Source: a virus. Taken from it: a stretch of DNA of 33,485 bases. The stretch covers positions 1 through 33,485 of the IMG/VR virus record IMGVR_UViG_3300042869_001541, one strand, 5' to 3'. This document shows positions 2,393 to 31,847 of the stretch, in pieces. The stretch's first letter is position 1. Each line of letters begins with the position of its first letter. The position numbers were made by a program, and so were the translations under genes. The notes under the pieces are model-generated. The model was not told the DNA's origin and did no database searches. It saw nothing but the letters and a program-made list of their open reading frames with translations.

Positions 2393-2434
2393 AATTGTAA
2401 ATTTATTTACATTTAAACAAATATATTTACAATT
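2393..2434. repeat. Inverted repeat, candidate upstream activator site for the sigma-54 regulator
   Basis: AATTGTAAATTTATTT (2393-2408) and AAATATATTTACAATT (2419-2434) are reverse complements at 15 of 16 positions, with a 10-nt spacer. The centre is about 107 bp upstream of the predicted sigma-54 start near 2306, where enhancer-binding proteins usually bind. It overlaps the last seven codons of the regulator gene. An AT-rich terminator is the alternative reading, but it has no GC stem. Confidence 0.5.
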
Positions 2435-3972
2435 CGCTCTCGGTTGTGCGGGGGTTCGACGTTCATGCCCAACCGTTTCATCCAATTAGCAAGAGTCTGA
2501 TGATTGGCAAAGCCAAGTAATTTTGCTGCAGTGGATTTGCGATGTCCTGATTGCTGCAAGGCATCGTTGATCAGGCTGCGTGCTACTTCATCAAGCTGTT
2601 CTTGCAAGTCGAAGCCGTCGCTCAATACAGGGGGACGATTCGGCACCGAAGATCGCGCGACAGGGAGCATCGCTGACTGGATGTCGCGGTCGGTAACGTC
2701 CGGACCTGAAGACCAAATGACTGCTCGCAACAGGGTGTGATACAGCTCGCGTATGTTGCCGGGCCAGGTGTGTGACTGCAATATCTTAAGTGCGGCCGGA
2801 CTAATGGACTTATGTTGTGCTTCGGGCCTGCCTGCCGAATCTGCGTTGATGCTGGCCAAAAAATGGTGTGCCAGTAACTCCACATCGCCAGTACGATCCC
2901 TTAACGGCGGCAGCTGAAGAATGCCTACAGCTAAGCGGTGAAAAAGATCTTCTCTAAAGCGACCTGCAGCTACATCGGCTGCTAAATCACGGTGTGTTGC
3001 CGCCAAGATGCGCGTGTTTATTTTGATGGGCTTGGACTGCCCCATTGGGGTAATTTCATGCGACTGCAGCGCGCGTAGTAATCGAACCTGCGTATCCAGT
3101 GGTAAGTCGCCCACCTCGTCAAGAAAAAGCGTTCCATCAGAAGCCTCCAGAAAGTGTCCCTTTCTGTCGGCAGTTGCCCCAGTGAATGCTCCTTTTTTAT
3201 GGCCAAACAATTCCGAGTTGGCCAACTCTGGCGCAATGGCTCCGCAGTTCACCGCGACGAACGGCTGTCCAGCCCTTGAACTTGCAGCGTGTATGGCCTC
3301 TGCAAACAACTCCTTGCCAGTACCGGTCTCCCCCAGAATTAGGACGGGTACCTCATATGCAGCAATTCGGCGTGCAAGGCCTATTTGACTGGCAACCGCC
3401 TGGCTTTGATGAATGATCTTCTCAAACTCTGGGGTTGAGAGTTGGGCTGCGTCAGACAGTCGCCGGACCCGCTCACCACTGCGTTGTAGATATTCTGGAA
3501 GGAAGTCGCTGGCCAAATCGAAGAAAAAATCAACAGGCTCGACGCCTTTTTCTCTGGAGGTTTGAATCAGCTTGGCTGGGAACCGCGTCTTGGAAAGAAT
3601 GATCCAGATGGCGGCCATTGCCGGTGTGCCAGGACTAACGTGAAAAGTGAGTTCTACGTCATCGCGCGGCAAGCCTGCTTGCTGGAGATTTGAACTGACT
3701 TGGGTGTAGATGTCCCCATAATCGATGGGACTGGTGAGGTCAACGCTGTACAGGTCGATTAAGGAAGAGTCGTAACTGGACACGGACTCCAGCCAAGTGC
3801 AGTAACTCTTGCTTCGATCAAAGTCGTAGTTTGTTAGCAGGTAGACGCGGTCGTAACGTTTTTTACCGCGCAATGCCGTCGCGATTGGGCCAAGGTCAGA
3901 GCCGCGCTTGGCCTCAGCGCATTCGTGGTCGGCTGCGCCGATCCATGCGATTAGCCAAGATTTGGGGTTCAT
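2413..3972 (-). CDS. Sigma-54-dependent transcriptional activator with a CARF/RtcR-like sensor domain
   Basis: 519 residues. Residues 1-~165 form an alpha/beta sensor with H-V-S-P-G-T-P-A-M (111-119) followed by a W-x-x-L helix, the ligand-loop pattern of CARF domains as in RtcR and Csx1-type proteins. The AAA+ domain (~185-420) is complete: Walker A G-E-T-G-T-G-K (214-220), GAFTGA (261-266) for sigma-54 contact, Walker B F-L-D-E (283-286) and W-P-G-N-I-R-E-L (403-410). A Fis-type helix-turn-helix follows (~460-500). It should hydrolyse ATP to open sigma-54 holoenzyme at the promoter just downstream. Unlike classical rtcR, no rtcA/rtcB genes adjoin it. The ATG has a poor Shine-Dalgarno, suggesting low expression. 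The ligand is unknown; a cyclic oligonucleotide or RNA end is possible. Confidence 0.88.
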   Translation of the reverse strand: MNPKSWLIAWIGAADHECAEAKRGSDLGPIATALRGKKRYDRVYLLTNYDFDRSKSYCTWLESVSSYDSSLIDLYSVDLTSPIDYGDIYTQVSSNLQQAGLPRDDVELTFHVSPGTPAMAAIWIILSKTRFPAKLIQTSREKGVEPVDFFFDLASDFLPEYLQRSGERVRRLSDAAQLSTPEFEKIIHQSQAVASQIGLARRIAAYEVPVLILGETGTGKELFAEAIHAASSRAGQPFVAVNCGAIAPELANSELFGHKKGAFTGATADRKGHFLEASDGTLFLDEVGDLPLDTQVRLLRALQSHEITPMGQSKPIKINTRILAATHRDLAADVAAGRFREDLFHRLAVGILQLPPLRDRTGDVELLAHHFLASINADSAGRPEAQHKSISPAALKILQSHTWPGNIRELYHTLLRAVIWSSGPDVTDRDIQSAMLPVARSSVPNRPPVLSDGFDLQEQLDEVARSLINDALQQSGHRKSTAAKLLGFANHQTLANWMKRLGMNVEPPHNRERIVNIFV

Positions 3973-5254: not shown

Positions 5255-5452
5255 ATGCAAACCAGCCCTCAAGAACAAATCGACTCAAGGTCTGAACCCA
5301 GCCCTATGGCCATCATTGGTGCCATCCTCGCCCAAGGCGCTATCAGGAGGATTGATCGGCAGAAAAGAGAACAACTGGTTGCTCAAAAAAGCAGCAAAGT
5401 CTCTGCCTCCCGCCTGATCGCCAACCCAGGCAGCACTCTGCCGCCACCGTAA
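5255..5452 (+). CDS. Small hypothetical protein running antisense into the lysozyme gene
   Basis: 65 codons from ATG 5255, with GGAG 8 nt upstream. It has a helical middle (P-M-A-I-I-G-A-I-L-A-Q-G-A-I-R-R-I) and a basic stretch. Its last ~23 codons are antisense to the conserved 3' end of the lysozyme gene. Either it is spurious, or it is a host or island gene whose true 3' end was replaced at a prophage junction near 5380. The good ribosome site and plausible start argue for a real gene remnant; I am unsure. Confidence 0.4.
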   Translation: MQTSPQEQIDSRSEPSPMAIIGAILAQGAIRRIDRQKREQLVAQKSSKVSASRLIANPGSTLPPP

Positions 5453-5838
5453 ACCCACCTACGCAACTCCTTCGCCGCACCTGGCCAATCACGCTGATTG
5501 ACCCTCCGCCGAAGCGTTGAGGTCTGCAACCGACCTGCTCCAAGGTTGAAGGTGAAGTCAACAATCGCCGCAAGCCGCCCCTCCGGCTCAGTTGCCAGCA
5601 CCGGGCAGTAGCGCAGTGTGGCTCTTAATGCATCGGCCATGTCAGCAGTGAGATACGCCTCGCCCTCTTCCATGTTGATCGGCGGGTGCTTGGCATCGCA
5701 AAGATGGCCGTACCCGATGGTCCAAAACCCTGCCGGACAGACATACGGATAAGCGCGATCCGGGTCTGACTTGGGCGCCCGGCAGAATCCCTCGAACCGC
5801 TTGGCCAGGTTGATAGCTGCTTGAGGCACTTCGATCAC
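5383..5838 (-). CDS. Phage endolysin, GH24 (T4-type) lysozyme
   Basis: 151 residues, the usual length of phage GH24 muramidases, which cut the beta-1,4 bond between MurNAc and GlcNAc. The N-terminal helix carries K-R-F-E-G-F with the catalytic Glu (residue 16), followed by the F-W-T-I-G-Y-G-H beta-hairpin (about 37-45) and the F-N-L-G-A-G motif near residue 99. No signal or SAR segment is present, so export depends on the holin gene, whose stop overlaps this start by 4 nt (ATGA). It is the last clear phage gene on the left. Confidence 0.93.
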   Translation of the reverse strand: MIEVPQAAINLAKRFEGFCRAPKSDPDRAYPYVCPAGFWTIGYGHLCDAKHPPINMEEGEAYLTADMADALRATLRYCPVLATEPEGRLAAIVDFTFNLGAGRLQTSTLRRRVNQRDWPGAAKELRRWVYGGGRVLPGLAIRREAETLLLF

Positions 5839-6691: not shown

Positions 6692-8041
6692 TTACTGCGC
6701 TGCAAGGATAGGAATCACGCGCCTAGCAGGAGGCGACTCCACGGTGCTTTTGGCCAGGCCAAAGATGTCCTTGCGCTCTGGCGGTAAATCGCCATCGATA
6801 AAGACCGGCATGCAACCCGTCAGATACTCAATGGCCGCCGCAAAGAACACCAGGTTGTCCGAATAGGCGGCGTCGCACCCAGCATCCCAAAGCGACCCTT
6901 CCAAAAACATGCACGAGCCTTTGCACATTTGCAGGACTGGGCAAGATGAGCAGCCATGACGCTGGCTCCAGTGCGTGGCGCTTTTCATGCGCACGGCGGA
7001 CAGGTCTGAAAGTTGACCGATCAAGTGACTTTGACCATTAGGAGCCGTAGCTGCGGCGCTCACGTTCTGACAAGTGACAACATTGCCTTTGAGATCGACA
7101 GCCAGGTTATGGCTTCGGTCCATGCCACATTTTTGTCCCAGCGCAGAGGCCGGTCGCTGGTAACGAATGGAATCAATGAAGTCTTGAATCTTCTGGTGAG
7201 TGATGTCAAAACGACTGGCAAGGCCGGTTCGAAGTTCGCCGAACCCTTGCCTTCGAAATTGGGCATGCTCTGCGGTGGTCTTGAAGATCGCCGCTAACCC
7301 ACCTTCATCGTAGGGGTCGATGAATGCACCTTCACCAATCTGAACATCAGATCCAAAGCGTTCTTGCAGCCAAATCTGGACCGCTGCTCTGCTCGTGTTT
7401 TGTCTGCTGATCATCGCGTTGATGCTGATGCGGCCCTGCGGATGGAGCCGCGCATAAAGATCCATGATGGCGGCACGCTTCTCTGGGTCGTCCAACGGGT
7501 CTGCGCCGCGTGCATGGTAGCCAGGACCATCATGGGAGAGCCCGACGACGAAGCCCATTCTGTCCAGCCACTCATTGGTCTCAATACTAAGCAACGATCC
7601 GTTGGTGATGATCAGGAACTCAGCATCCGGGTAGAGCACGCGCAGGCGCTCAGCCAAGGGCTTCAAGGTCTTGATATAGACCAGTGGTTCACCGCCCCAA
7701 AATTCAATACGCCCGGGAGCCTGGCTCAGGCTGGCGATCAACTGCTGCAGGAAGTCCTCCACATCCTCAGGGTTCGTACTTTCAGCGTGGGGCACAAAGC
7801 GCTGGCTGCAGTAGTTGCACTCGTAGTTGCAGGACAAGCCGAGGCTGATTTTGAGGGTCTTGATCAGGCCTTTTCGGCCTGGCTGGGTGGTGCTCACGAC
7901 CGTGGCGTCCTGAAACGTTTTGGGATTGACTTCCAGTACGGGGGACAAATCTCCCCAAGTCAGGCTGCTGGTCTGGTTGTCGTAATGCAACTCGCGTTCC
8001 GTGTTATCCGGCGCAATTAGCTTGATCTGGAACTTCGCCAT
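6692..8041 (-). CDS. Radical SAM/SPASM peptide-modifying enzyme
   Basis: 449 residues. A radical SAM core begins with C-N-Y-E-C-N-Y-C (Cys71, 75, 78), which binds the [4Fe-4S] cluster that cleaves S-adenosylmethionine; F-W-G-G-E-P (114-119) is the usual GGE motif. The C-terminus is a full SPASM domain: Cys315, G-x4-C334, then C374-x2-C377-x5-C383-x3-C387 and Cys399, enough for two auxiliary clusters. Such enzymes usually modify peptides or proteins (thioether, C-C or epimer formation, sulfatase maturation). The start (ATG 8041, GGAGG 7 nt upstream) overlaps the oxygenase stop. It is the last gene of an operon led by a tail-fibre-like protein with a Cys-rich end, which I infer to be its substrate. 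A radical SAM maturase among tail genes is unusual. Confidence 0.93.
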   Translation of the reverse strand: MAKFQIKLIAPDNTERELHYDNQTSSLTWGDLSPVLEVNPKTFQDATVVSTTQPGRKGLIKTLKISLGLSCNYECNYCSQRFVPHAESTNPEDVEDFLQQLIASLSQAPGRIEFWGGEPLVYIKTLKPLAERLRVLYPDAEFLIITNGSLLSIETNEWLDRMGFVVGLSHDGPGYHARGADPLDDPEKRAAIMDLYARLHPQGRISINAMISRQNTSRAAVQIWLQERFGSDVQIGEGAFIDPYDEGGLAAIFKTTAEHAQFRRQGFGELRTGLASRFDITHQKIQDFIDSIRYQRPASALGQKCGMDRSHNLAVDLKGNVVTCQNVSAAATAPNGQSHLIGQLSDLSAVRMKSATHWSQRHGCSSCPVLQMCKGSCMFLEGSLWDAGCDAAYSDNLVFFAAAIEYLTGCMPVFIDGDLPPERKDIFGLAKSTVESPPARRVIPILAAQ

Positions 8042-8598
8042 CAGAGAACCTCCATCTCAAGATGAATTTCTACGCTGGGACGCTCGCCCAAGTAGACGTG
8101 CCCGAAGTGCAGCAAGTGGCTCGGAAACACCAGCAGCAAATCAGGATGAGGATCAACCATGACCACGCGGCCCTCACCGGGCAGCGCCTTGCTTCCAAAA
8201 GGTCCGATTGGGCTTTGCAAAACAAGTGAACCATCGTACTCACCTCGAGCGTGATCAGGATGAGCATCCCCATCAATCCAGTAAACGGCAGACAGGTGCG
8301 CCGACTCCACATGGGGCGGTACGAAGTCGCCTTTGAACTGGACCAACTCTCTGCCGGTGATGGTTGCGACATCAATGCCAAAAGCTTCGCTCGTCACGGC
8401 TCTGATTCGAGCGAACAGGTCTGCAAATACAGGATCCATGGATTCGAGTGACTCGCGGGTCGAGCGGCTCCAAGGTTTTCTCTTGGAGTTGAGTTCGCCA
8501 TAAACGGCGAGCGTCTTGTCCTTAAGGACCTGGCGCTCCTCATCCGTCAATCCAAGTTGGGTGCGAAAGACCGGAGTTGGGAAAAGCAGTTGCATCAT
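8041..8598 (-). CDS. 2OG-Fe(II) oxygenase-like protein
   Basis: 185 residues. It resembles small putative 2-oxoglutarate/Fe(II) oxygenases of the double-stranded beta-helix fold: P-P-H-V-E (metal ligands His96 and Glu98) with L-S-A-V-Y-W just after, a G-S-L-V-L-Q strand, and F-P-S-H-L-L-H-F-G with the distal His164. It then has R-P-S-V-E-I, where Arg173 would bind 2-oxoglutarate. The likely reaction is hydroxylation of a protein or peptide side chain. It is coupled by 4-nt overlaps to the gene before it and the radical SAM gene after it, so the two enzymes probably act in one pathway on a tail protein. The substrate is unknown. HxE instead of HxD is a tolerated variation. Confidence 0.8.
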   Translation of the reverse strand: MMQLLFPTPVFRTQLGLTDEERQVLKDKTLAVYGELNSKRKPWSRSTRESLESMDPVFADLFARIRAVTSEAFGIDVATITGRELVQFKGDFVPPHVESAHLSAVYWIDGDAHPDHARGEYDGSLVLQSPIGPFGSKALPGEGRVVMVDPHPDLLLVFPSHLLHFGHVYLGERPSVEIHLEMEVL

Positions 8599-9386
8599 GC
8601 GGCCACCACCGCAATCCGCGCGTCTTCTGCACCTGGGAAATACTTCCAGCCAAACTTCACCCGGATTTCATCACCAGCAGACATGCCTGCTGCGGACACG
8701 GGAACGGTAGCCAATCCATGGGTTGCACGAACTCGTGCGAACGGCACCAGCCCGCTCACGGCTTCAAGGTAGACAACAGCCTCTCTGTCAAGCAGTTGCC
8801 CTGCCACATCCTCAATGCGCAATGCGATGGAGGCACTGCTGCCCACTGGAACACTGGCAGGCGCTTGCACATGAATAAACGGAAACGCCATGGTGCGAAC
8901 AGCTCCGCTGCTGGCCGCTTCGCTCCAAACGAGCGCGCAGTGCTCATCGACCTGAATGTTGGCGTCTGTCGCCTGCGCGTTGAGGTTCACCGTGATAAAT
9001 AGCTCATCATCACTGGCCGTTGCAAATGGCACGTTGATGCCCACCAGAAGATTTCTCTTGAGGCGTTGGGCGTAATCGACAGCTGTTTCGCGATTGGGGA
9101 GTGTTTCTGGATACAGCGCAAAGACAGGAAGAAACGCCCCGGCATGAACAGCCACAAAGTAAGTCTGGTGATCGCACCAGTCGTAGCGCTTGCGCAGATC
9201 GGCGATGTTGACAACCACGGACTCGATCAACGACAAGCCTGTATCGCCACTAGTCGCATCATCTGTCGCAAGCTCAGGCAGGTACAAGGACACGCTCAGG
9301 TCACTGGTGGCGGGGTCGAAGCCGAGGTGAACGGTGGGTTGGAATTGGGGATGGATTTGTGCGTTGCGCACTGCAATGATTTTCAT
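8595..9386 (-). CDS. Unknown tail-associated protein with a C-terminal Ig-like domain
   Basis: 263 residues from ATG 9386 (AAGGA 8 nt upstream). The first ~165 residues are an unrecognised alpha/beta domain with a W-C-D-H-Q-T-Y-F stretch. The last ~90 (P-A-S-V-P-V-G-S-S-A-S-I-A-L-R onward) look like a bacterial Ig-like beta-sandwich, common in virion surface proteins. It starts 12 nt after the Cys-rich fibre gene and its stop overlaps the oxygenase start. It may be a fibre chaperone, adaptor or recognition protein for the modification enzymes; this rests on position. Confidence 0.7.
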   Translation of the reverse strand: MKIIAVRNAQIHPQFQPTVHLGFDPATSDLSVSLYLPELATDDATSGDTGLSLIESVVVNIADLRKRYDWCDHQTYFVAVHAGAFLPVFALYPETLPNRETAVDYAQRLKRNLLVGINVPFATASDDELFITVNLNAQATDANIQVDEHCALVWSEAASSGAVRTMAFPFIHVQAPASVPVGSSASIALRIEDVAGQLLDREAVVYLEAVSGLVPFARVRATHGLATVPVSAAGMSAGDEIRVKFGWKYFPGAEDARIAVVAA

Positions 9387-9397
9387 GAGCGGTGTCC

Positions 9398-10009
9398 TTA
9401 GCAGCAGCAATCGCAGTTGCAATTGCAGTTCGTGTTTCGATAAATGCGCACCGTGTTATCGGTGGCGACTTGAACCAATGCGTTGACAGCCAACGCGCCA
9501 CCGATACCGTCACCAACGTTTCCGCTGTACTGAAATGCCGCTACTGCAGTTGGTCGTCCACTCACACCTGTCCAGGGCACGCTGCCTGCACTGCCCGCAT
9601 AGTTCACCGAGAAGTTCGAGGGGTTGTAGACATAGAAGTTAGTTCCATCGTTGCCTCCCCAAAGCCAAGTTGGCTGCCCCGCCTGGCCAGACCAGTTGTA
9701 AGTGCCCGCGCCAGCAGTTGAATTAAGCTGACTTGCAGTTGCAGCGTTTCCACTCACGCTGATCGGCCAAGTACCCGAAGCTCCAGTGCCACCGGGTTGC
9801 GGTGGCGTGAAACCGAGAGCGGCAATCACCTGCGCATAGGTCGGTGCTGTGGCGTTGATCACACCCAGCGCTGTGCGAGCTGTTGCGGCTGTACCGTCCG
9901 AGCCCAGCAGCCCAGTGAGGTAGTCGTTCAAAGAATCAAGGGCAGTCTTGAACTGCCCTTGGGTAACTGTTGAACCAGTGAAGCTGGCTTTGGATGGAAT
10001 CGCTGTCAT
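9398..10009 (-). CDS. Tail-fibre-like protein ending in a Cys-rich tail (NCNCNCDCCC)
   Basis: 203 residues. The N-terminus (Q-F-K-T-A-L-D-S-L-N-D-Y-L, A-A-T-A-R-T-A-L-G-V) and the Gly/Ser/Asn-rich middle (V-S-G-N-A-A-T-A, N-F-Y-V-Y-N-P-S-N-F) are typical of short tail fibres. The C-terminus is odd: after R-I-Y-R-N-T the protein ends N-C-N-C-N-C-D-C-C-C, six Cys in ten residues. There are no other Cys in the protein. Three genes downstream encode the Ig-like protein, an oxygenase-like protein and a radical SAM/SPASM enzyme. By analogy with RiPP precursors the Cys tail is a likely modification target. It could instead bind metal or form disulfides at the fibre tip. Confidence 0.82.
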   Translation of the reverse strand: MTAIPSKASFTGSTVTQGQFKTALDSLNDYLTGLLGSDGTAATARTALGVINATAPTYAQVIAALGFTPPQPGGTGASGTWPISVSGNAATASQLNSTAGAGTYNWSGQAGQPTWLWGGNDGTNFYVYNPSNFSVNYAGSAGSVPWTGVSGRPTAVAAFQYSGNVGDGIGGALAVNALVQVATDNTVRIYRNTNCNCNCDCCC

Positions 10010-10021
10010 AAATGCCTCCGG

Positions 10022-10216
10022 TTATTTCCACATAGGCGCGGAGTCCCCCTGACCCGGCACATAGCCAGGCACAAAGGTGACGATCACGCCGTCTGCGCGT
10101 TTGAGATAAATCTTTCCGTCCGCCACGTTGAGTACCAACTCACCCAGCGTGACTTGCGCAGCGGTGGGTACGGCGGCTGCCGTGCTGCTGCGCTTGTGCA
10201 GGATGGTGTTGGCCAT
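10022..10216 (-). CDS. Small fibre-anchor-like phage protein
   Basis: 64 residues. The N-terminal pattern M-A-N-T-I-L-H-K-R-S-S-T with L-G-E-L-V-L-N-V-A-D-G-K-I-Y-L-K matches the short anchor module at the start of many phage tail-fibre proteins, including the 481-residue fibre just upstream (N-L-I-Q-I-K-R-S-A-T, V-G-E-L-A-W). It ends P-M-W-K without a fibre shaft. It may be a stand-alone anchor, a fibre cap, or what is left of a longer fibre. Spacing of 2 nt to the upstream gene and 12 nt to the downstream gene puts it in the fibre operon. Confidence 0.7.
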   Translation of the reverse strand: MANTILHKRSSTAAAVPTAAQVTLGELVLNVADGKIYLKRADGVIVTFVPGYVPGQGDSAPMWK

Positions 10217-10218
10217 GG

Positions 10219-11664
10219 TTAGAACGACCCTCCGTCAATCGTGGCGCTCGTGGACAAAGCGTCCGTGATACCAAAGCCCGAAAGAGTCGTGGGTTTGCCG
10301 CTGACGCTGGTCCAAGCAGGCGTGATAGTTACAGCCGTACCGATGGCAGTCACACGACCCTTGGCATCAACCGTGATGGGGGAAACCGCAGTGGCGCTGC
10401 TGTTGTAGGTGCCAGCGGTCACGCCACTCGCTGCCAAAGTGAGTGCCATGGATGTCGTGCCCGATCCCGTGACGTCGCCCGAAACCGTGATGTTCTGGTT
10501 AGCGGTTATGTAGCCGGGGTTGGACCCGGCCGTTACCCGACCGGTGGTATCCACCGTCATGCTGGAATAAGTGCCCGCAGTGACACCTGTCGCAGTGATC
10601 GAGAGCGTGTTGCCGGTCTTGGTTAGACCTGTACCCGCTGTAAGTTGACCAAGCCCGTTGAATTGCTGGAATGTCAGCGCTGTGGTGCCTAGAGTGATAG
10701 TTCCATTGGTTGCCAGAACCCAGCCGGAATCGGCGTAGCTGGTACCTTCTTCAACAAAGACATAAAGGCCCGACGTTAATTCGCCGCCGGGTGTGTTGTC
10801 AGCATCCGCTGATCGAGCCCATGCGCCTGCCGCCACAACATACAGGCCGTTTTGCGCACCTGCGGTTTGGTCCTTGACCAGCACCCGATCTCCAGCAACC
10901 AACAGCACACCATCAATGGTCTGAATACCAGACAAGGTAATGTTTGCCGTCGTGGTGGCGCGAACCGAGGCTTTGAAATCAAGGCCAGTGATGGCGTTGT
11001 CCACATACTGCTTTGTTGCTGCATGCAAGGCGTTAGTGGGGTCAGCAGCCAGCGTCAATGCGCCGGTAAGCGTTCCACCAGTAAGCGCCAGTGCATCAGT
11101 GATGCCGTAGCCAGACAAGGTGGTGGGTTTGCTCGTCACGCTCGACCAGGCCGGTGTCAAAGTGACCGCTGCACCTGTGCCCGTGATTCGGCCCTTGGCA
11201 TCTACCGTCAACGGTGTGATGGCGGTGGTGCCGTTGTTGTAAGTTCCAGCCGTTACACCACTGCTGGCCAAGGTCAGCGCAATCGCTGTCGTTCCTGTGC
11301 CCGTGGCATCACCAGAAACGGTGATGTTCTGGTTTGCAGTGAGGTATCCGGGATTGCTGCCACCAGTCACGCGCCCTTTGGCATCTACAGTGACGTTGGA
11401 ATAACTGCCTGCTGTGACACCACTTGCAGCTAAAGCCAGCACCAAGCCACCTGACAAAGTTCCAGTTCCTGTGGCGTCTCCACTGATTGCGAAGCTGTCA
11501 GACTTCTTAGCAAAGACCCCCGAGCCTGCAGCCGCTGTGACAACGCTTCCGGACTCTCCGATGAACAGCGTCTTACTGACTTCGGACCAGGCCAGTTCAC
11601 CCACTGCAAGTGTGGGCGGTGTGGCGGTGGTGGCTGACCGTTTGATTTGTATAAGGTTGGGCAT
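10219..11664 (-). CDS. Phage tail fibre protein with duplicated module
   Basis: 481 residues from ATG 11664 (GGAG 6 nt upstream). The N-terminal anchor (residues 1-45) is followed by Gly/Thr/Ser-rich repeats. A ~112-residue module (81-192: T-V-D-A-K-G-R-V-T, N-Q-N-I-T-V-S-G-D, P-T-T-L-S-G-Y-G-I-T-D-A-L) recurs at 359-470. Between them is a region common in phage fibres (T-N-A-L-H-A-A-T-K-Q-Y-V-D, G-D-R-V-L-V-K-D-Q-T). These proteins trimerise and contact the host surface. It has no tip enzyme domain and no intramolecular chaperone, so the true tip may be one of the smaller proteins downstream. Confidence 0.9.
   Translation of the reverse strand: MPNLIQIKRSATTATPPTLAVGELAWSEVSKTLFIGESGSVVTAAAGSGVFAKKSDSFAISGDATGTGTLSGGLVLALAASGVTAGSYSNVTVDAKGRVTGGSNPGYLTANQNITVSGDATGTGTTAIALTLASSGVTAGTYNNGTTAITPLTVDAKGRITGTGAAVTLTPAWSSVTSKPTTLSGYGITDALALTGGTLTGALTLAADPTNALHAATKQYVDNAITGLDFKASVRATTTANITLSGIQTIDGVLLVAGDRVLVKDQTAGAQNGLYVVAAGAWARSADADNTPGGELTSGLYVFVEEGTSYADSGWVLATNGTITLGTTALTFQQFNGLGQLTAGTGLTKTGNTLSITATGVTAGTYSSMTVDTTGRVTAGSNPGYITANQNITVSGDVTGSGTTSMALTLAASGVTAGTYNSSATAVSPITVDAKGRVTAIGTAVTITPAWTSVSGKPTTLSGFGITDALSTSATIDGGSF
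10255..10590 (-). repeat. Second copy of the duplicated tail-fibre module
   Basis: Encodes residues 359-470 of the fibre and matches the segment at 11089-11424 (residues 81-192) along its whole length. Shared landmarks are N-P-G-Y-(L/I)-T-A-N-Q-N-I-T-V-S-G-D and K-P-T-T-L-S-G-(Y/F)-G-I-T-D-A-L. The copies have diverged at both DNA and protein level, so the duplication is old or under selection. Confidence 0.75.
11089..11424 (-). repeat. First copy of the duplicated tail-fibre module
   Basis: Encodes residues 81-192 of the fibre; partner of 10255-10590. The two copies flank the A-A-T-K-Q-Y-V-D central region, so the fibre is built as module, centre, module. Confidence 0.75.
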
Positions 11665-12225: not shown

Positions 12226-15195
12226 TCAATATCCTTGAACGTAGGCGTCCACAGTCCCAGCGGTTGCAGCGCCACTGGCGTTGAAACACTGGATCAGCGG
12301 GCCAGAGGTTGATTTGTCGACCACGCGGGCCGTGGTGGCAGAACCACCGTCTGAATGCAATGTGAGGCTCACGATCACCACGTTTCGCCAGCCGGTGCCA
12401 ATCGCCAATCGAGTACCTCCCGAGGCAATGACCACATCCGGGAGGCGAATCGTTTTATCGGGCACATCGATCTGCGCAACCACCGAGCCAATCAGGCCTT
12501 GTAAATTGCTCTGATCGATGTCGATGCGAAACTGATACGTTGTTCCGGCATCAGCCCATGCGCGTCCAGGAAACGGCACGTAGGCCACGTCCGTCGTCTT
12601 CTTCCAAGTGATCTTCCAGGCGTAGCCACTGATGGTGGCTGCGATCGTGAGACTGCCACTCTCGGTGAATGTGACGCTGCCCGTCCAAGAAATGGCTTGG
12701 TACTGTGGCACCAAAAAAACTGCAGCGGTGTTAGTCCACAACTGCGCCGTGTCGTTACTCCACATGCGCGATGAGTCGGGGGCTACCACCGGCGTCGTAT
12801 TGAGCGTGTAGCTTGCAAACACGTTCTCCACCGGCGCATCACCTAAGTTGCAGGCAATGGCCGTGACGTTCAGGCTTTCATTACCTGTGGTGTCGACCGC
12901 TTTGATCAGAATCTGACCGGCCCCGTAAGGAATGGTGACCAGATCCCAGGGTGAGACTGACAGCAGACCGGTGTGTAGTTCCAGCGCATCCGACCAGGAA
13001 CGACTGCCCCCCGGCTGCCAACGCACGCGGTAACCAGCAAGATCGATGTCTGTGACTGGTCCCCAAGTCAGGCGCTCGCCGTCTAGGCGCAGCCAAGGGA
13101 CATCGGAAGGTGGTGCAGTTTTACCCACCACTTGAACCGTCCCCTGGCTCCAGGCCCCGCGCACGCCGATCGAATTGATCGCCCGAATGCGAACGTTGTA
13201 GCTGGCTCCATCTTGAACTGGCGAGACCCAGGCCACGCCCAATTCGGCAGCCACGATGTCCACCGGCGACCATCCAAGATCGGTGGTCGCTTTGGATTGA
13301 ATCTCTACCTGACCCTTTTGGGCGTAGACCTCTGTGGGTGCGGTCCATCCGACCCGGATGCGGGAAATGACAGAGCCATCAGCCAGTCGAAGTAATTCAG
13401 ATGTACCGGAGGCCAGAGTGAGACCCGACACCGCAGGCACGCTGAACGGGTCTGGCAAATTGGACTGGGCTATGACGGCGGCAGGCGACAGGACCGCTTG
13501 CGTGTAAACACTGGCGCTGTATTCACGGGCTACGACATAGACCTCATCGTTGTCCTTGATCTCGATTTGCATGATCCGAAACAATTTGGCCGACCAACCC
13601 GGCGTTGAATGCGTAATTGGCACCACGTCCCCAACCTCGCAGCGCAAGCCCTCCTGAAAAGCGGAGAACTTCACGATCAAACCGTAGCGGCTCTGGTTAA
13701 GGGTCAACTGACCGATGTTTTGCGCCCGGTAGCTGTTGGCTGTGAAAGGCAAATCAATCTTGGCTTCCAGAATCAGACCGTTGTCAGTAGCACGCAAAGC
13801 TGTGGACTCCACCATTGCCAAATCGGGCTGCCACTTCTTGGCCGGGTTATAGAACCCTGCGGTGACCCGGTTGTACTTGGCGCGTTTACCGGCCTGGCTG
13901 ATGACCCAAGAGCCGGTGATGTTGCTCTCAGTGAACCCGAAGCTTGAGGCTGTGGTGGCCACATCAAGCACCAAACGGTACTTGCCTCCGCTAAACACCA
14001 ACATGCCCCGGCACGCGGTGAGCAACGCGCGCACGTTGTCATACGCGGTCTGGTTTGTGTCGATCGTTCCGTCGCAGGCGTAAGCCGCATAGTTCACCTG
14101 GGTCAGCGTGTGTTGGCCCGAACCTGCGGAAGTCAGATCGATGGCCACACCGGCAAAGGCATTGGCCAGTGTGGTGGCCAGTTGGTAGCTGGTGTCAGTT
14201 ACCTTGATAGCGTAATAAGTTGTCCCTGCGACCAACGGACTGGGCAAGGTGGCGGTGCTGCTCACTTTGACACCGTCACCGGTGTCGATCGGAATCGGTT
14301 GGGAGAAAGTCAGCGCTTCGGTCGTGGTGCTGACCGTGAAAATGTCAGAAAAACTGGGGGCCGTAATCCGCACATCGCAGGCGTTCGCAGCTGCTGCAAT
14401 GCTCGTGTCATCGATCGCGCTGCTGGCTATGCCTCGCCCGTAAATCGTGTTACTCAGGTAGTCCCGAAGGACGAGTGCTGGGTTGTTGGAATAGCGGGTC
14501 TGACCGTTTCGTGGGTCGAACAAGGTTCTGCCGCGCACATCGGCAGTGATCGTGGGCAGGCCAGAGAAAGCGTTGCGGTCGTACTTGAGCTTGACGTACA
14601 AGTAGGCGCAGTTGGAAAGTTTGCAGGCACTGGTCCATTTGGGTACATCAGCGGTCAGCGCTGCATCGGCTGCTTCACCCGGCGTACCCAGGTGCTTGGT
14701 AACAGTGACCAGGCCATTGAATTTGGCGTCACTTGAAAGCACATCGTCCAAGTACACGTTATCGATCGCGGTCACGGGGCCTTCTGACAGCACCAGCACC
14801 AGATGCAGGTATTCGTTGCTGCTTCCGGAGACCTCAATAAACACCCGTGTGCCACCCACCCGTCGGCGACCGTAGATCACAGGGATGGGGTCGACATTGC
14901 TCTGGGAGTTAATCAGGATGCCCTGCGCCTGGGCCGAAGACAGCGCTGACTGAGCGCTCGAGGGCGAGTTCGAACCGATCAGTGACTGCACCGCAAGATT
15001 GGCAACACCCCCGGCGACCAAACCGGTCGCACCGCCGATAAAGCTGGCTGTGGCAAGCGATGCGCCAAGAACGTCAGCCGCTGCAGCCGTGATGCCCGAC
15101 TCAATGACCATGCCAAGTACGGCATCAGCCACCACCGCACCCACAGCCTCCGACACCACCGACCCAACGATGGCTCCAATGACGATCCCTGCCAT
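12226..15195 (-). CDS. J-like tail tip / host-specificity protein
   Basis: 989 residues, the size of lambda J-type central tail tip proteins that hold the receptor-binding end of the tail. An Ala/Gly-rich apolar N-terminus (1-90) is followed by the conserved tip region with D-P-I-P-V-I-Y-G-R-R-R-V-G-G (about 102-115) and H-L-V-L-V-L-S-E-G-P-V. A Ser/Thr/Gly-rich beta insert lies at about 281-370, the main hub at 380-580 and two fibronectin-III-like domains at about 590-790. The C-terminal ~190 residues are an unrecognised beta-rich domain. Its stop is followed at once by the baseplate accessory gene, and the start overlaps the GNAT gene by 1 nt. Confidence 0.92.
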   Translation of the reverse strand: MAGIVIGAIVGSVVSEAVGAVVADAVLGMVIESGITAAAADVLGASLATASFIGGATGLVAGGVANLAVQSLIGSNSPSSAQSALSSAQAQGILINSQSNVDPIPVIYGRRRVGGTRVFIEVSGSSNEYLHLVLVLSEGPVTAIDNVYLDDVLSSDAKFNGLVTVTKHLGTPGEAADAALTADVPKWTSACKLSNCAYLYVKLKYDRNAFSGLPTITADVRGRTLFDPRNGQTRYSNNPALVLRDYLSNTIYGRGIASSAIDDTSIAAAANACDVRITAPSFSDIFTVSTTTEALTFSQPIPIDTGDGVKVSSTATLPSPLVAGTTYYAIKVTDTSYQLATTLANAFAGVAIDLTSAGSGQHTLTQVNYAAYACDGTIDTNQTAYDNVRALLTACRGMLVFSGGKYRLVLDVATTASSFGFTESNITGSWVISQAGKRAKYNRVTAGFYNPAKKWQPDLAMVESTALRATDNGLILEAKIDLPFTANSYRAQNIGQLTLNQSRYGLIVKFSAFQEGLRCEVGDVVPITHSTPGWSAKLFRIMQIEIKDNDEVYVVAREYSASVYTQAVLSPAAVIAQSNLPDPFSVPAVSGLTLASGTSELLRLADGSVISRIRVGWTAPTEVYAQKGQVEIQSKATTDLGWSPVDIVAAELGVAWVSPVQDGASYNVRIRAINSIGVRGAWSQGTVQVVGKTAPPSDVPWLRLDGERLTWGPVTDIDLAGYRVRWQPGGSRSWSDALELHTGLLSVSPWDLVTIPYGAGQILIKAVDTTGNESLNVTAIACNLGDAPVENVFASYTLNTTPVVAPDSSRMWSNDTAQLWTNTAAVFLVPQYQAISWTGSVTFTESGSLTIAATISGYAWKITWKKTTDVAYVPFPGRAWADAGTTYQFRIDIDQSNLQGLIGSVVAQIDVPDKTIRLPDVVIASGGTRLAIGTGWRNVVIVSLTLHSDGGSATTARVVDKSTSGPLIQCFNASGAATAGTVDAYVQGY

Positions 15196-30056: not shown

Positions 30057-30530
30057 ATGAAACTCACACCCAGCCAAACCTTGCTTCTCAACGCTGCAGG
30101 CAGCCATCCTCAGCATGTGTTGACCGACTTCCCGCCCAACCTCAAAGGTGGTGCGTTGATCAAGGTGCTGACCAGCCTTGGCAATGAAGGCCTGATCCGC
30201 CCGCACAGCAAAGGCGCTGCGGGTTCAACCCGCTTTGCCCTCACCACCGCAGGGTTGAAGGCCATTGGCATTGAGCCACCGGTCAAATCCAAACGCGAAG
30301 GTAGCAAGCAGTCGGTGCTCATCGATCTGATGAAGCGCCCAGAAGGTGCAACCCTTCCGCAAATGGTGGAGGCCACAGGCTGGCAAGCGCACACGGTGCG
30401 CGGATGCATGGCCGGGACTTTGAAAAAGAAACTGGGCCTGACCATCGACTCCGTCAAGGAGAGCGGTGGTGAGCGGGTCTACAGGGTCTCACCCTCCAGC
30501 TCGCTCCCCACAACATCAAAAACAGACTGA
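30057..30530 (+). CDS. DUF3489 domain protein
   Basis: 157 residues from ATG 30057 (GGAG 6 nt upstream); a coupled ATG at 30042 is the alternative. The N-terminal half looks like a winged-helix regulator (L-L-N-A-A-G-S-H-P, L-T-S-L-G-N-E-G-L-I). The C-terminal half is DUF3489: L-M-K-R-P-E-G-A-T-L-P-Q-M-V-E-A-T-G-W, T-V-R-G, then G-T-L-K-K-K-L-G-L and G-G-E-R-V-Y-R-V. It is likely a DNA-binding protein. Its 3' end overlaps the convergent methyltransferase gene by 52 nt. Confidence 0.85.
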   Translation: MKLTPSQTLLLNAAGSHPQHVLTDFPPNLKGGALIKVLTSLGNEGLIRPHSKGAAGSTRFALTTAGLKAIGIEPPVKSKREGSKQSVLIDLMKRPEGATLPQMVEATGWQAHTVRGCMAGTLKKKLGLTIDSVKESGGERVYRVSPSSSLPTTSKTD

Positions 30531-31762
30531 CCTTGCGGCGCAAGATCTGAAAACACAGAGCCATCCGATTCACGGGTGGCTTTCTGTCCTGTGAAGTCCT
30601 CCCAGCGCTTGACGATCACGTCCACATACTTGGGATCCATCTCCATGAGTCGTGCCTGTCGATTGGTTTTTTCGCAGGCAATAAGCGTGGTGCCAGAGCC
30701 GCCAAACAAGTCGATCACGATGTCACGCGTCTTCGATGAGTTCTTAATGGCACGCTCTACCAACTCCACCGGTTTCATCGTCGGGTGCAGGTCGTTCACG
30801 CGAGGCTTGTTGTAATTCCAAATGTCTGACTGGTCGCGGTCGCCGCACCAGAAGTGTTTAGCCCCGTCCTTCCATCCGTAAAGGATGGGCTCGTACTGGC
30901 GCTGGTAGTCGGCGCGACCGAGTGTGAAAGTGTTCTTGGCCCAGATCACAAATGTCGACCACTTGCCACCCGCATCAAGCCAGGCTTTTTGCAGTGTGTG
31001 CAACTCGGATGAGCTCATGCACACGTAGCAGGCACCTTTGGTGACTACCAACAAGTTGACACAGGCGTCATAAAGGAACTTGTAGAACCCGTCACCGAGC
31101 GCATCGTTCATGATGCGGCGGTCCTTGCCGCGCATCTTGTCTTTGGCGTTGTTGCCGTAGTCCACGTTGTAGGGTGGATCAGTGAACGCCATGTCGGCGA
31201 GTTGACCGTTCATGAGGCGCTCGACATCTGAGAGCACTGTGGAGTCACCACACAGCAAACGGTGCTGACCCAAGACCCACACATCACCTGTTTTGGAAAC
31301 AGGTTCGGCTGGCAATTCGGGGACTGCATCGTCCTCGGTCAGGCCCGTGGTGTCGCCGTCGCCATTGAGCAAACGCTCGAGTTCTTCGTCACCAAAGCCC
31401 ATCAACTCCAGATTGAAGTCAGCCTCATCGAGTTCGGCAATCTCAAGCTTGAGCAACTCTTCGTCCCAGCCAGCGTTTGCAGCGATGCGGTTGTCGGCCA
31501 GGATGTAGGCTTTCTTTTGAATTGCAGTGAGGTGGCCCAGCTCAATCACGGGCACTTGTGTCAGTGCAAGTTTGCGCGCAGCAGCCAAGCGGCCATGCCC
31601 TGCGATCACGCCTTTTTCGCCGTCTGTCAGGATGGGATTGGTAAAACCAAACTCGGAGATGGATGCGGCAATTTGTGCCACCTGGTCTTCGCTGTGGGTG
31701 CGGGCGTTTCGCGCATACGGGATGAGCGAATCCACCGGGACCATTCGGATCTCGGGTGTCAT
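30479..31762 (-). CDS. ParB-domain DNA adenine/cytosine-N4 methyltransferase
   Basis: 427 residues from ATG 31762 (a TTG at 31768 is possible; no strong Shine-Dalgarno). Residues 1-~120 are a ParB/sulfiredoxin-like domain (G-F-T-N-P-I-L, G-V-I-A-G-H-G-R-L-A-A-A). The rest is a beta-class amino-methyltransferase: F-T-D-P-P-Y-N-V-D-Y (catalytic DPPY, about 200-209) and then D-L-F-G-G-S-G-T-T near the C-terminus for SAM binding. Such fusions are common in prophages as solitary methylases without a nuclease and may protect phage DNA. None of the flanking genes looks like a partner restriction enzyme. Confidence 0.92.
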   Translation of the reverse strand: MTPEIRMVPVDSLIPYARNARTHSEDQVAQIAASISEFGFTNPILTDGEKGVIAGHGRLAAARKLALTQVPVIELGHLTAIQKKAYILADNRIAANAGWDEELLKLEIAELDEADFNLELMGFGDEELERLLNGDGDTTGLTEDDAVPELPAEPVSKTGDVWVLGQHRLLCGDSTVLSDVERLMNGQLADMAFTDPPYNVDYGNNAKDKMRGKDRRIMNDALGDGFYKFLYDACVNLLVVTKGACYVCMSSSELHTLQKAWLDAGGKWSTFVIWAKNTFTLGRADYQRQYEPILYGWKDGAKHFWCGDRDQSDIWNYNKPRVNDLHPTMKPVELVERAIKNSSKTRDIVIDLFGGSGTTLIACEKTNRQARLMEMDPKYVDVIVKRWEDFTGQKATRESDGSVFSDLAPQGQSVFDVVGSELEGETL

Positions 31763-31847
31763 TGGCAAGCTTTCGGGTTGGAGCGCAGCGTGTAAGTCGA
31801 CCGGTAGCGGGTACTTGCAAGCGCGATAGATGTGAGAGGTGAAGACC

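Follow-up and report, generated by a model that had tools for sequence, protein, structure and literature searches.

Why would a phage tail-fibre-like protein carry all of its cysteines in a short C-terminal run, and why would a radical S-adenosylmethionine (SAM) enzyme be encoded a few genes downstream of it? This question is raised by the IMG/VR virus record IMGVR_UViG_3300042869_001541, which was analyzed over its whole length of 33,485 bases (referred to here as the window). A first reading of the window sequence (the original prediction) proposed that this fibre is modified at its tip by a system similar to those making ribosomally synthesized and post-translationally modified peptides (RiPPs). 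Genome comparisons, profile searches and structure models were combined to evaluate this proposal. As a result, we report that the locus is probably a phage-borne cassette that matures virion fibres in a RiPP-like manner, and that its radical SAM enzyme very probably modifies the Cys tail.

The 203-aa fibre-like protein ends with TNCNCNCDCCC directly before the stop codon and contains, as first stated, exactly six Cys, all within the last ten residues. It locally matches the tail fibre of Ochrobactrum phage OC (62% over 66 aa) and also Sinorhizobium phage PBC5. On the minus strand, the gene for a J-like tail-tip protein is followed by fibre genes, the 203-aa fibre-like gene, a 263-aa protein gene, an oxygenase gene, the radical SAM gene, and then by more phage genes; the location of the J-like gene thus places the cassette at the end of the tail genes (Table 1). 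The original prediction listed the fibre, the oxygenase and the radical SAM enzyme as one operon with 4-nt overlaps. All three genes are present, but the 263-aa gene between the fibre and the oxygenase was overlooked, and the 4-nt overlap holds for the 263-aa gene and the oxygenase (8595-8598), whereas the oxygenase and radical SAM genes overlap by 1 nt (8041) and the fibre gene is separated from the 263-aa gene by 11 nt, assuming the likely ATG at 9386.

The description of the enzyme as a radical SAM/SPASM protein with seven SPASM Cys holds. It matches the Radical_SAM (PF04055) and SPASM (TIGR04085) models, both above cut-off, as well as phrog_1802 (E 2e-58), and carries all ten cluster Cys: the radical SAM residues Cys 71, 75 and 78 and the seven Cys of the SPASM motif (CX9-15GX4C, CX2CX5CX3C, C), which are invariant in an alignment of 44 diverse homologues. 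Assignment to the viperin/pVip defence enzymes was rejected, given a score of 52 bits against a cut-off of 180, the coverage of the core only by the pVip models, and the presence of the SPASM domain. Separately, the radical SAM frame is broken or short (a 118-aa frame, about 70 bits) in loci L128, L171 and also L310, in which the window-type cassette is otherwise intact, reflecting either sequencing error or natural loss.

Joint occurrence of the tail and the enzyme was first indicated by two isolated phages, Achromobacter phages JWF and 2-1, in which a Cys-tailed fibre lies beside a PHROG 1802 enzyme (47% identical to that of the window) despite differences in the other genes. Independent occurrence of tails and enzymes, named in the original prediction as a refuting outcome, was looked for from three seeds: the enzyme, the tail DNA and the 263-aa gene. 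For the first seed, enzyme relatives were collected from IMG/VR (the best 80 of 422 were used) and from the GTDB species genomes (the best 80 of 92, mostly from Burkholderiales, including Limnohabitans, Polaromonas and Burkholderia, and from Rhodobacteraceae and Rhodospirillaceae). A tail was scored when the final 20 residues of an open reading frame (ORF) of 45 aa or more contained at least four Cys and the pattern [NDQ]CxCxC. This definition was set after the first tails were known, and the reverse and held-out tests were run under fixed rules; near-identical contigs were handled through clustering, and duplicates remain in some counts. The forward count covered only loci that had not been fetched by the tail pattern, with an upstream zone of 7.5 kb.

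In the enzyme-seeded loci, Cys tails were found in 123 of 3232 upstream ORFs on the same strand and in only 1 of 12912 ORFs elsewhere (0/4239 downstream on the same strand, 1/3919 upstream on the opposite strand, and 0/4754 others). At the level of enzyme clusters (70% identity, at least 3 kb of upstream DNA), a tail is present upstream in 34 of 38, or in 35 if locus L237, where the tail sits 40 residues before the protein end, is counted; the remaining three clusters are formed by non-phage loci. With the loci seeded by the tail pattern included, tails accompany the enzyme in 49 of the 54 clusters with enough DNA. The reverse scan of IMG/VR, which used an exact DNA pattern for NCNCNC(N/D)C and no information about the enzyme, returned at least 119 loci. 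Among the matches listed, the pattern lies at the C-terminal end of an ORF in 89 loci, with the enzyme in the same locus for 74 of them, elsewhere on the record for 8, and less than 2.5 kb of downstream DNA available for the remaining 7. The search for further Cys-tailed fibres with a nearby radical SAM gene, which was suggested with the original prediction, thus gave the enzyme in 82 of 82 assessable records and no counterexample among these listed matches; in all 74 shared loci the enzyme lies downstream in the same orientation, at a median distance of 1284 bp. The loci seeded by the 263-aa gene all possess a tail if enough upstream DNA is available, and a radical SAM reading frame wherever the contig extends far enough downstream, including a short broken frame in L310. 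In the Limnohabitans family, where 7 of 401 genomes encode the enzyme, three held-out loci were inspected: tails are present in L298 and, together with a Hint domain, in L302, and L303 is a YcaO cluster of the non-phage type described below. Independence was not seen from any of the three seeds, and the enzyme-substrate pairing, as predicted from these genomic associations, is strongly supported.

These counts also bear on the proposal that the enzyme genes are morons inserted beside a variable fibre gene, with no functional link to it. Cargo genes are known to accumulate in fibre regions, and radical SAM cassettes were remarked on in the host-recognition region of pelagimyophages, with no function assigned (PMC7029224). 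Hitchhiking, however, fails to predict that one residue pattern should appear on unrelated fibre bodies exactly where the enzyme is present; it is refuted as far as sequence can refute it, and we regard it as extremely improbable.

The tails themselves are variable around a fixed theme. Among the 166 unique tail proteins encoded upstream of the enzyme family of the window, 80 distinct tails were identified, with a median of six Cys and a Cys as the last residue in 131 proteins; the residue preceding a tail Cys is Asn in 688 cases, Asp in 89 and Ala in 69, others being rare. The tail of the Limnohabitans prophages L208 and L209 is identical to that of the window. The proteins range from about 65 to 620 aa, and the tails are borne by at least nine families of fibre bodies without detectable sequence similarity to each other, a low estimate because single linkage merges most bodies into one family. 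Unlike the window fibre, many of the bodies contain a few further Cys. All of the tail proteins are predicted to be fibres from their genomic context, from repeats of the fibre type, and from segments resembling collagen or PilV. Asn and Cys codons differ synonymously within one and the same tail; therefore, it is the amino acids that are preserved. Chance composition as a source of the tails is excluded by the positional ORF controls together with this codon variation, and a frame artefact or overlapping ORFs by the recurrence of tails at the C-terminal ends of fibre genes across many genomes.

Several variants of the tail architecture were recorded in addition. Many tails, among them those of L211, L244, L246, L247 and L249, have in front of them either an extra NC at a distance of four residues ([FY]NC[RYV][TS]NCNC) or a more extended run (ACNCNCNCG..YTNCNCG); these extensions suggest a second modification site. 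Three tandem small ORFs (92-119 aa), each Cys-tailed, lie upstream of a single radical SAM gene in L077 (6011-7090) and L080 (5549-6473). Phage contigs of the L097 type (L097:592-11662; also L148, L103, L159 and L180) encode, ahead of several different radical SAM genes and genes of unknown function, a 67-79 aa protein whose end reads ACNCNCNCNC(S/T)RGIL or a similar sequence. This arrangement seems to be a bigger and more remotely related form of the cassette, which looks like a complete RiPP cluster carried by a phage.

A further variant concerns the end of the tail. In Achromobacter phages JWF and 2-1, the fibre gene is located two genes upstream of the enzyme gene, the middle of the fibre protein reads RQNCNCDCNCNCSCFPAGTMVLMADGTQKLIE, and the Cys tail is directly followed by a Hint (intein-like) domain, which in JWF matches PF05203 above cut-off. 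The 240-aa product of the middle gene of JWF was considered as a homologue of the 263-aa protein and gave no match. In twelve loci, a Hint domain begins 0-5 residues after the tail with a CFxxGT-type start and contains a TxxH-like block; the usual C-terminal splicing residues were not seen by eye in these twelve fusions, and no Hint domain is present in the window. The relationship is best illustrated by L157, in which NCNCNCDCCC is followed by CFAPGT, compared with NCNCNCDCCC and a stop codon in the window. The simplest reading of these sequences is that the mature protein would end with the tail in both the Hint-fused and the stop-codon phages.

Of the two other cassette proteins, the 263-aa protein is usually present and the oxygenase is optional. 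The 185-aa protein was proposed to be oxygenase-like, and it appears to be a distant member of the 2-oxoglutarate (2OG)-Fe(II) oxygenases: PF13759 is matched below threshold and phrog_81 with E 5e-12, and the structure model (pLDDT 95) is a double-stranded beta-helix with 3bvc and 2rg4, followed by P4H/PHD2 prolyl hydroxylases, as the best PDB matches. His96 and His164 are invariant in the family, in which the first site reads HxE/D/H (E98 in the window). The modelled protein therefore has the 2OG-Fe(II) oxygenase fold with an HxD/E...H iron site, and the corresponding activity is predicted. The original prediction tied both enzymes to the tail; this stands for the radical SAM enzyme, but the oxygenase is optional, being encoded in about half of the clusters (23 of 49 tail-bearing enzyme clusters), so the tail and the radical SAM enzyme form the core pair. 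Two oxygenases are present in some cassettes (L065, L249), and the gene order in Rhodobacteraceae is 263-aa gene, oxygenase, tail, oxygenase, radical SAM.

The 263-aa family is found in 39 of the 49 tail-bearing clusters. Its AlphaFold2 model (pLDDT 96) comprises an N-terminal domain of its own and an immunoglobulin (Ig)-like C-terminal domain, and the whole-length matches obtained with Foldseek are unnamed phage proteins only, with template modelling (TM) scores up to about 0.75. Scans with single members of this family yielded little, and a scan from a closer alignment succeeded. The protein is a candidate tip partner, chaperone or substrate presenter. Direct tblastn searches against phage isolates gave zero matches for both the 263-aa protein and the oxygenase.

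What, then, does the radical SAM enzyme do to the tail? By profile comparison, its PDB relatives include the SCIFF maturase CteB (5wgg, E 5e-14) and, among the best, the anaerobic sulfatase-maturating enzyme AnSME (4k36-4k39), which, like the proposed system, has radical SAM and SPASM domains and targets a Cys in a large protein; the homologue from JWF has been annotated as such an enzyme. By analogy, the tail Cys could be oxidized to formylglycine or another aldehyde, providing a reactive tip that would bond covalently to the host surface. When aligned by profile with AnSME (4k37), however, the window enzyme has a gap opposite Cys261 and the near-invariant Gln325 at the position of Asp277; in AnSME, these two residues are an extra ligand of auxiliary cluster I (Aux I) and the catalytic residue, respectively. 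The window enzyme thus departs from the AnSME pattern of a catalytic Asp after the second SPASM Cys and eight auxiliary-cluster Cys. Since the tail also contains no CxPxR sulfatase motif, aldehyde formation is very unlikely. With seven SPASM Cys, as in CteB, and no counterpart of AnSME Cys261, the window enzyme may leave one coordination position of Aux I free.

An open Aux I site that is bound by a substrate Cys was described for the thioether-forming CteB (PMC6231123). Similarly, in PapB the substrate thiol binds an auxiliary cluster, and the Cys sulfur is joined to the beta-carbon of an Asp (PMC10470005); such a cluster-bound thiol is plausible for the window enzyme too. PapB (NF047865), a ranthipeptide (thioether) maturase, is the best NCBIfam match of the window enzyme (53 bits, E 2.9e-14) and of most relatives tested (35-111 bits in divergent ones), and, as in the window, the PapB/freyrasin maturases are encoded beside a Cys-rich target with Asx residues. 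The PapB match, the cluster-bound Cys of CteB and PapB, the seven SPASM Cys, and the relatives in YcaO clusters with Cys peptides together favour thioethers between the tail Cys and their neighbours. A thioether product is our favoured guess, although it may prove wrong about as easily as right. Other products of radical chemistry were also considered, namely D-amino acids formed by epimerization, C-C or C-O cross-links, or inter-chain bonds locking the trimer. SPASM and related radical SAM enzymes catalyze such reactions, and cyclophane-forming enzymes (YhhB) and YydG are also among the matches. In the tails, however, the Cys are invariant while their neighbours vary, which points to chemistry at sulfur, and we consider these products quite unlikely.

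Several observations weigh against the thioether and RiPP-like interpretation. The window enzyme remains below the curated NF047865 cut-off of 340 bits, and all NCBIfam family matches are far under the respective cut-offs; consequently, the type of reaction is not readable from the family and is a prediction. PapB acts on a short leader-core peptide at CX3D, whereas the target here is the C-terminal end of a phage structural protein, a large substrate unlike those of ordinary RiPPs, in which (N/D/A)C alternates and the residue adjoining Cys is mostly Asn. CteB has a RiPP recognition element (RRE) and a short peptide substrate, while no such leader-binding domain was detected in the window enzyme by profile scans. 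In contrast to a classical RiPP cluster, with a short leader-core precursor, an RRE and a protease or exporter, the targets here are proteins of about 65 to 620 aa, and no exporter was seen in the window cassette.

Finally, the strict alternation of Cys equally suits a metal-binding ladder in a trimer, which is the main rival explanation. The alternating Cys of three parallel strands would point towards the trimer axis as ligands of iron, zinc or an Fe-S cluster, with the radical SAM enzyme setting the geometry at a few residues or aiding assembly. The every-second-residue spacing fits an axial metal column, and there is a precedent in the HxH motifs near the tip of the T4 gp37 fibre, which bind seven iron ions (PMC11705849). 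T4 gp37, however, uses His, whereas the window tail uses Cys at the extreme C-terminus together with an obligate gene for a modifying enzyme, which HxH fibres are not known to require. The metal site by itself leaves the obligate link to a SAM-radical enzyme with full SPASM clusters unexplained, and a strict ladder is hard to reconcile with the variable tail length and with ends such as CCC, CGC or GK. We thus consider it unlikely.

Cross-linking of the tail was adopted as the working model, which can be outlined as follows. The C-terminal end of the fibre would serve as a short substrate tag of Asn/Asp alternating with Cys, on which the radical SAM/SPASM enzyme encoded downstream would act. 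Most likely, a 5'-deoxyadenosyl radical would abstract hydrogen from a residue adjoining a Cys that is meanwhile bound at a putative open site of auxiliary cluster I, and the outcome would be thioether cross-links from Cys to Asx (or Ala/Gly), as made by PapB on PapA. The optional 2OG-Fe oxygenase may hydroxylate the same tag, plausibly at Asn/Asp, and the Ig-like protein probably binds or presents the fibre tip. In the Hint phages, self-cleavage at the Hint Cys would uncover a C-terminal end equal to that of the stop-codon version. The final product could be a rigid fibre tip that resists proteases and oxidation, or a contact surface with special chemistry, either of which might benefit the phage. 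In its complete form, that is, a dedicated radical SAM enzyme covalently cross-linking a C-terminal Cys-Asx tag within or between the three fibre chains, with optional 2OG hydroxylases, an Ig-like tip protein, and sometimes a self-cleaving Hint domain exposing the tag, as an undescribed class of virion maturation in phages of several bacterial groups, the model is one towards which we lean slightly. With respect to the modified fibre tip originally proposed, the pairing of tail and enzyme withstood the test from three seeds, and the modification itself remains predicted.

Enzymes of the same family outside phages nest inside the tree of the phage enzymes and are mostly encoded in YcaO RiPP clusters. 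The tail-less loci comprise L270, L274 and L277 (Variovorax) with L273, in which the L270 enzyme is accompanied by a YcaO-nitroreductase protein with homologues in L273, L274 and L303, and the Bacteriovorax loci L283 and L285, where an ABC transporter gene adjoins the L283 enzyme. In L274 (8711-8926), L270 and L273, a short conserved Cys peptide (LNCxVxVxxSSIxxL...DCGC) is encoded directly before the radical SAM gene, possibly representing an undescribed RiPP. Unlike the phage cassette, these clusters contain YcaO machinery, no fibre and no Cys tail. Distant radical SAM genes with weak similarity were also noticed in isolated Campylobacter phages (the CP220 group, e.g. FN667788, 16362-16724) and in Erwinia phages.

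In agreement with the original prediction, which knew of no comparable phage system, no report linking radical SAM enzymes to fibre modification was found in the open set of PubMed Central (subscription papers and preprints lie outside it), and a text search of the literature for NCNCNC returned nothing relevant. PHROG 1802 is a bare cluster in the category 'other', with no substrate or function assigned. If the model is correct, the fibres by which many phages choose their hosts receive their final form through radical chemistry at the tips and are not purely genetically encoded, which would add a new layer to phage-host biology and extend RiPP chemistry to large trimeric proteins. It would also provide a function for PHROG 1802 and explain why these fibres might not work when expressed by themselves. 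The proposal is directly testable with the ten-residue tag as a substrate and the enzyme encoded a few genes downstream, for which natural sequence variation across hundreds of relatives (422 from a single viral scan) offers a ready mutational series and the isolates JWF and 2-1 are available.

Table 1. Cassette genes, motifs and neighbouring phage genes in the window
Feature	Position	Strand	Basis
203-aa fibre-like protein with Cys tail, predicted substrate	9398-10009	-	tail fibre matches, Cys count
Cys-tail codons, NCNCNCDCCC	9401-9430	-	translation
263-aa Ig-like-domain protein (orf275 family)	8595-9386	-	AlphaFold2 model, Foldseek
185-aa 2OG-Fe(II) oxygenase-like protein, HxE...H (H96, E98, H164)	8041-8598	-	profiles, model
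449-aa radical SAM/SPASM enzyme (phrog_1802), predicted tail maturase	6692-8041	-	profiles
CX3CX2C radical SAM cluster motif (C71, C75, C78)	7808-7831	-	invariant in homologue alignment
SPASM domain, Cys 305, 324, 364, 367, 373, 377, 389	6875-7129	-	TIGR04085 above cut-off
64-aa fibre N-terminal-like protein, zero Cys, directly upstream; candidate cassette member only	10022-10216	-	weak PHROG tail fibre matches
481-aa tail fibre protein, zero Cys, upstream	10219-11664	-	PHROG tail fibre matches
Central tail fibre J-like protein (tail tip)	12226-15195	-	phrog_31 E 3.5e-79
Lysozyme, among phage genes after the cassette	5383-5838		

Two further genes of the window were recorded apart from the cassette. 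A sigma-54 activator whose N-terminal region is RtcR-like (RNA-repair regulator family) is encoded at 2413-3972 on the minus strand and adjoins unannotated genes at 326-2284. At 30479-31768, also on the minus strand, a ParB-like N-terminal region (sub-threshold) is fused to an N6/N4 DNA methylase.

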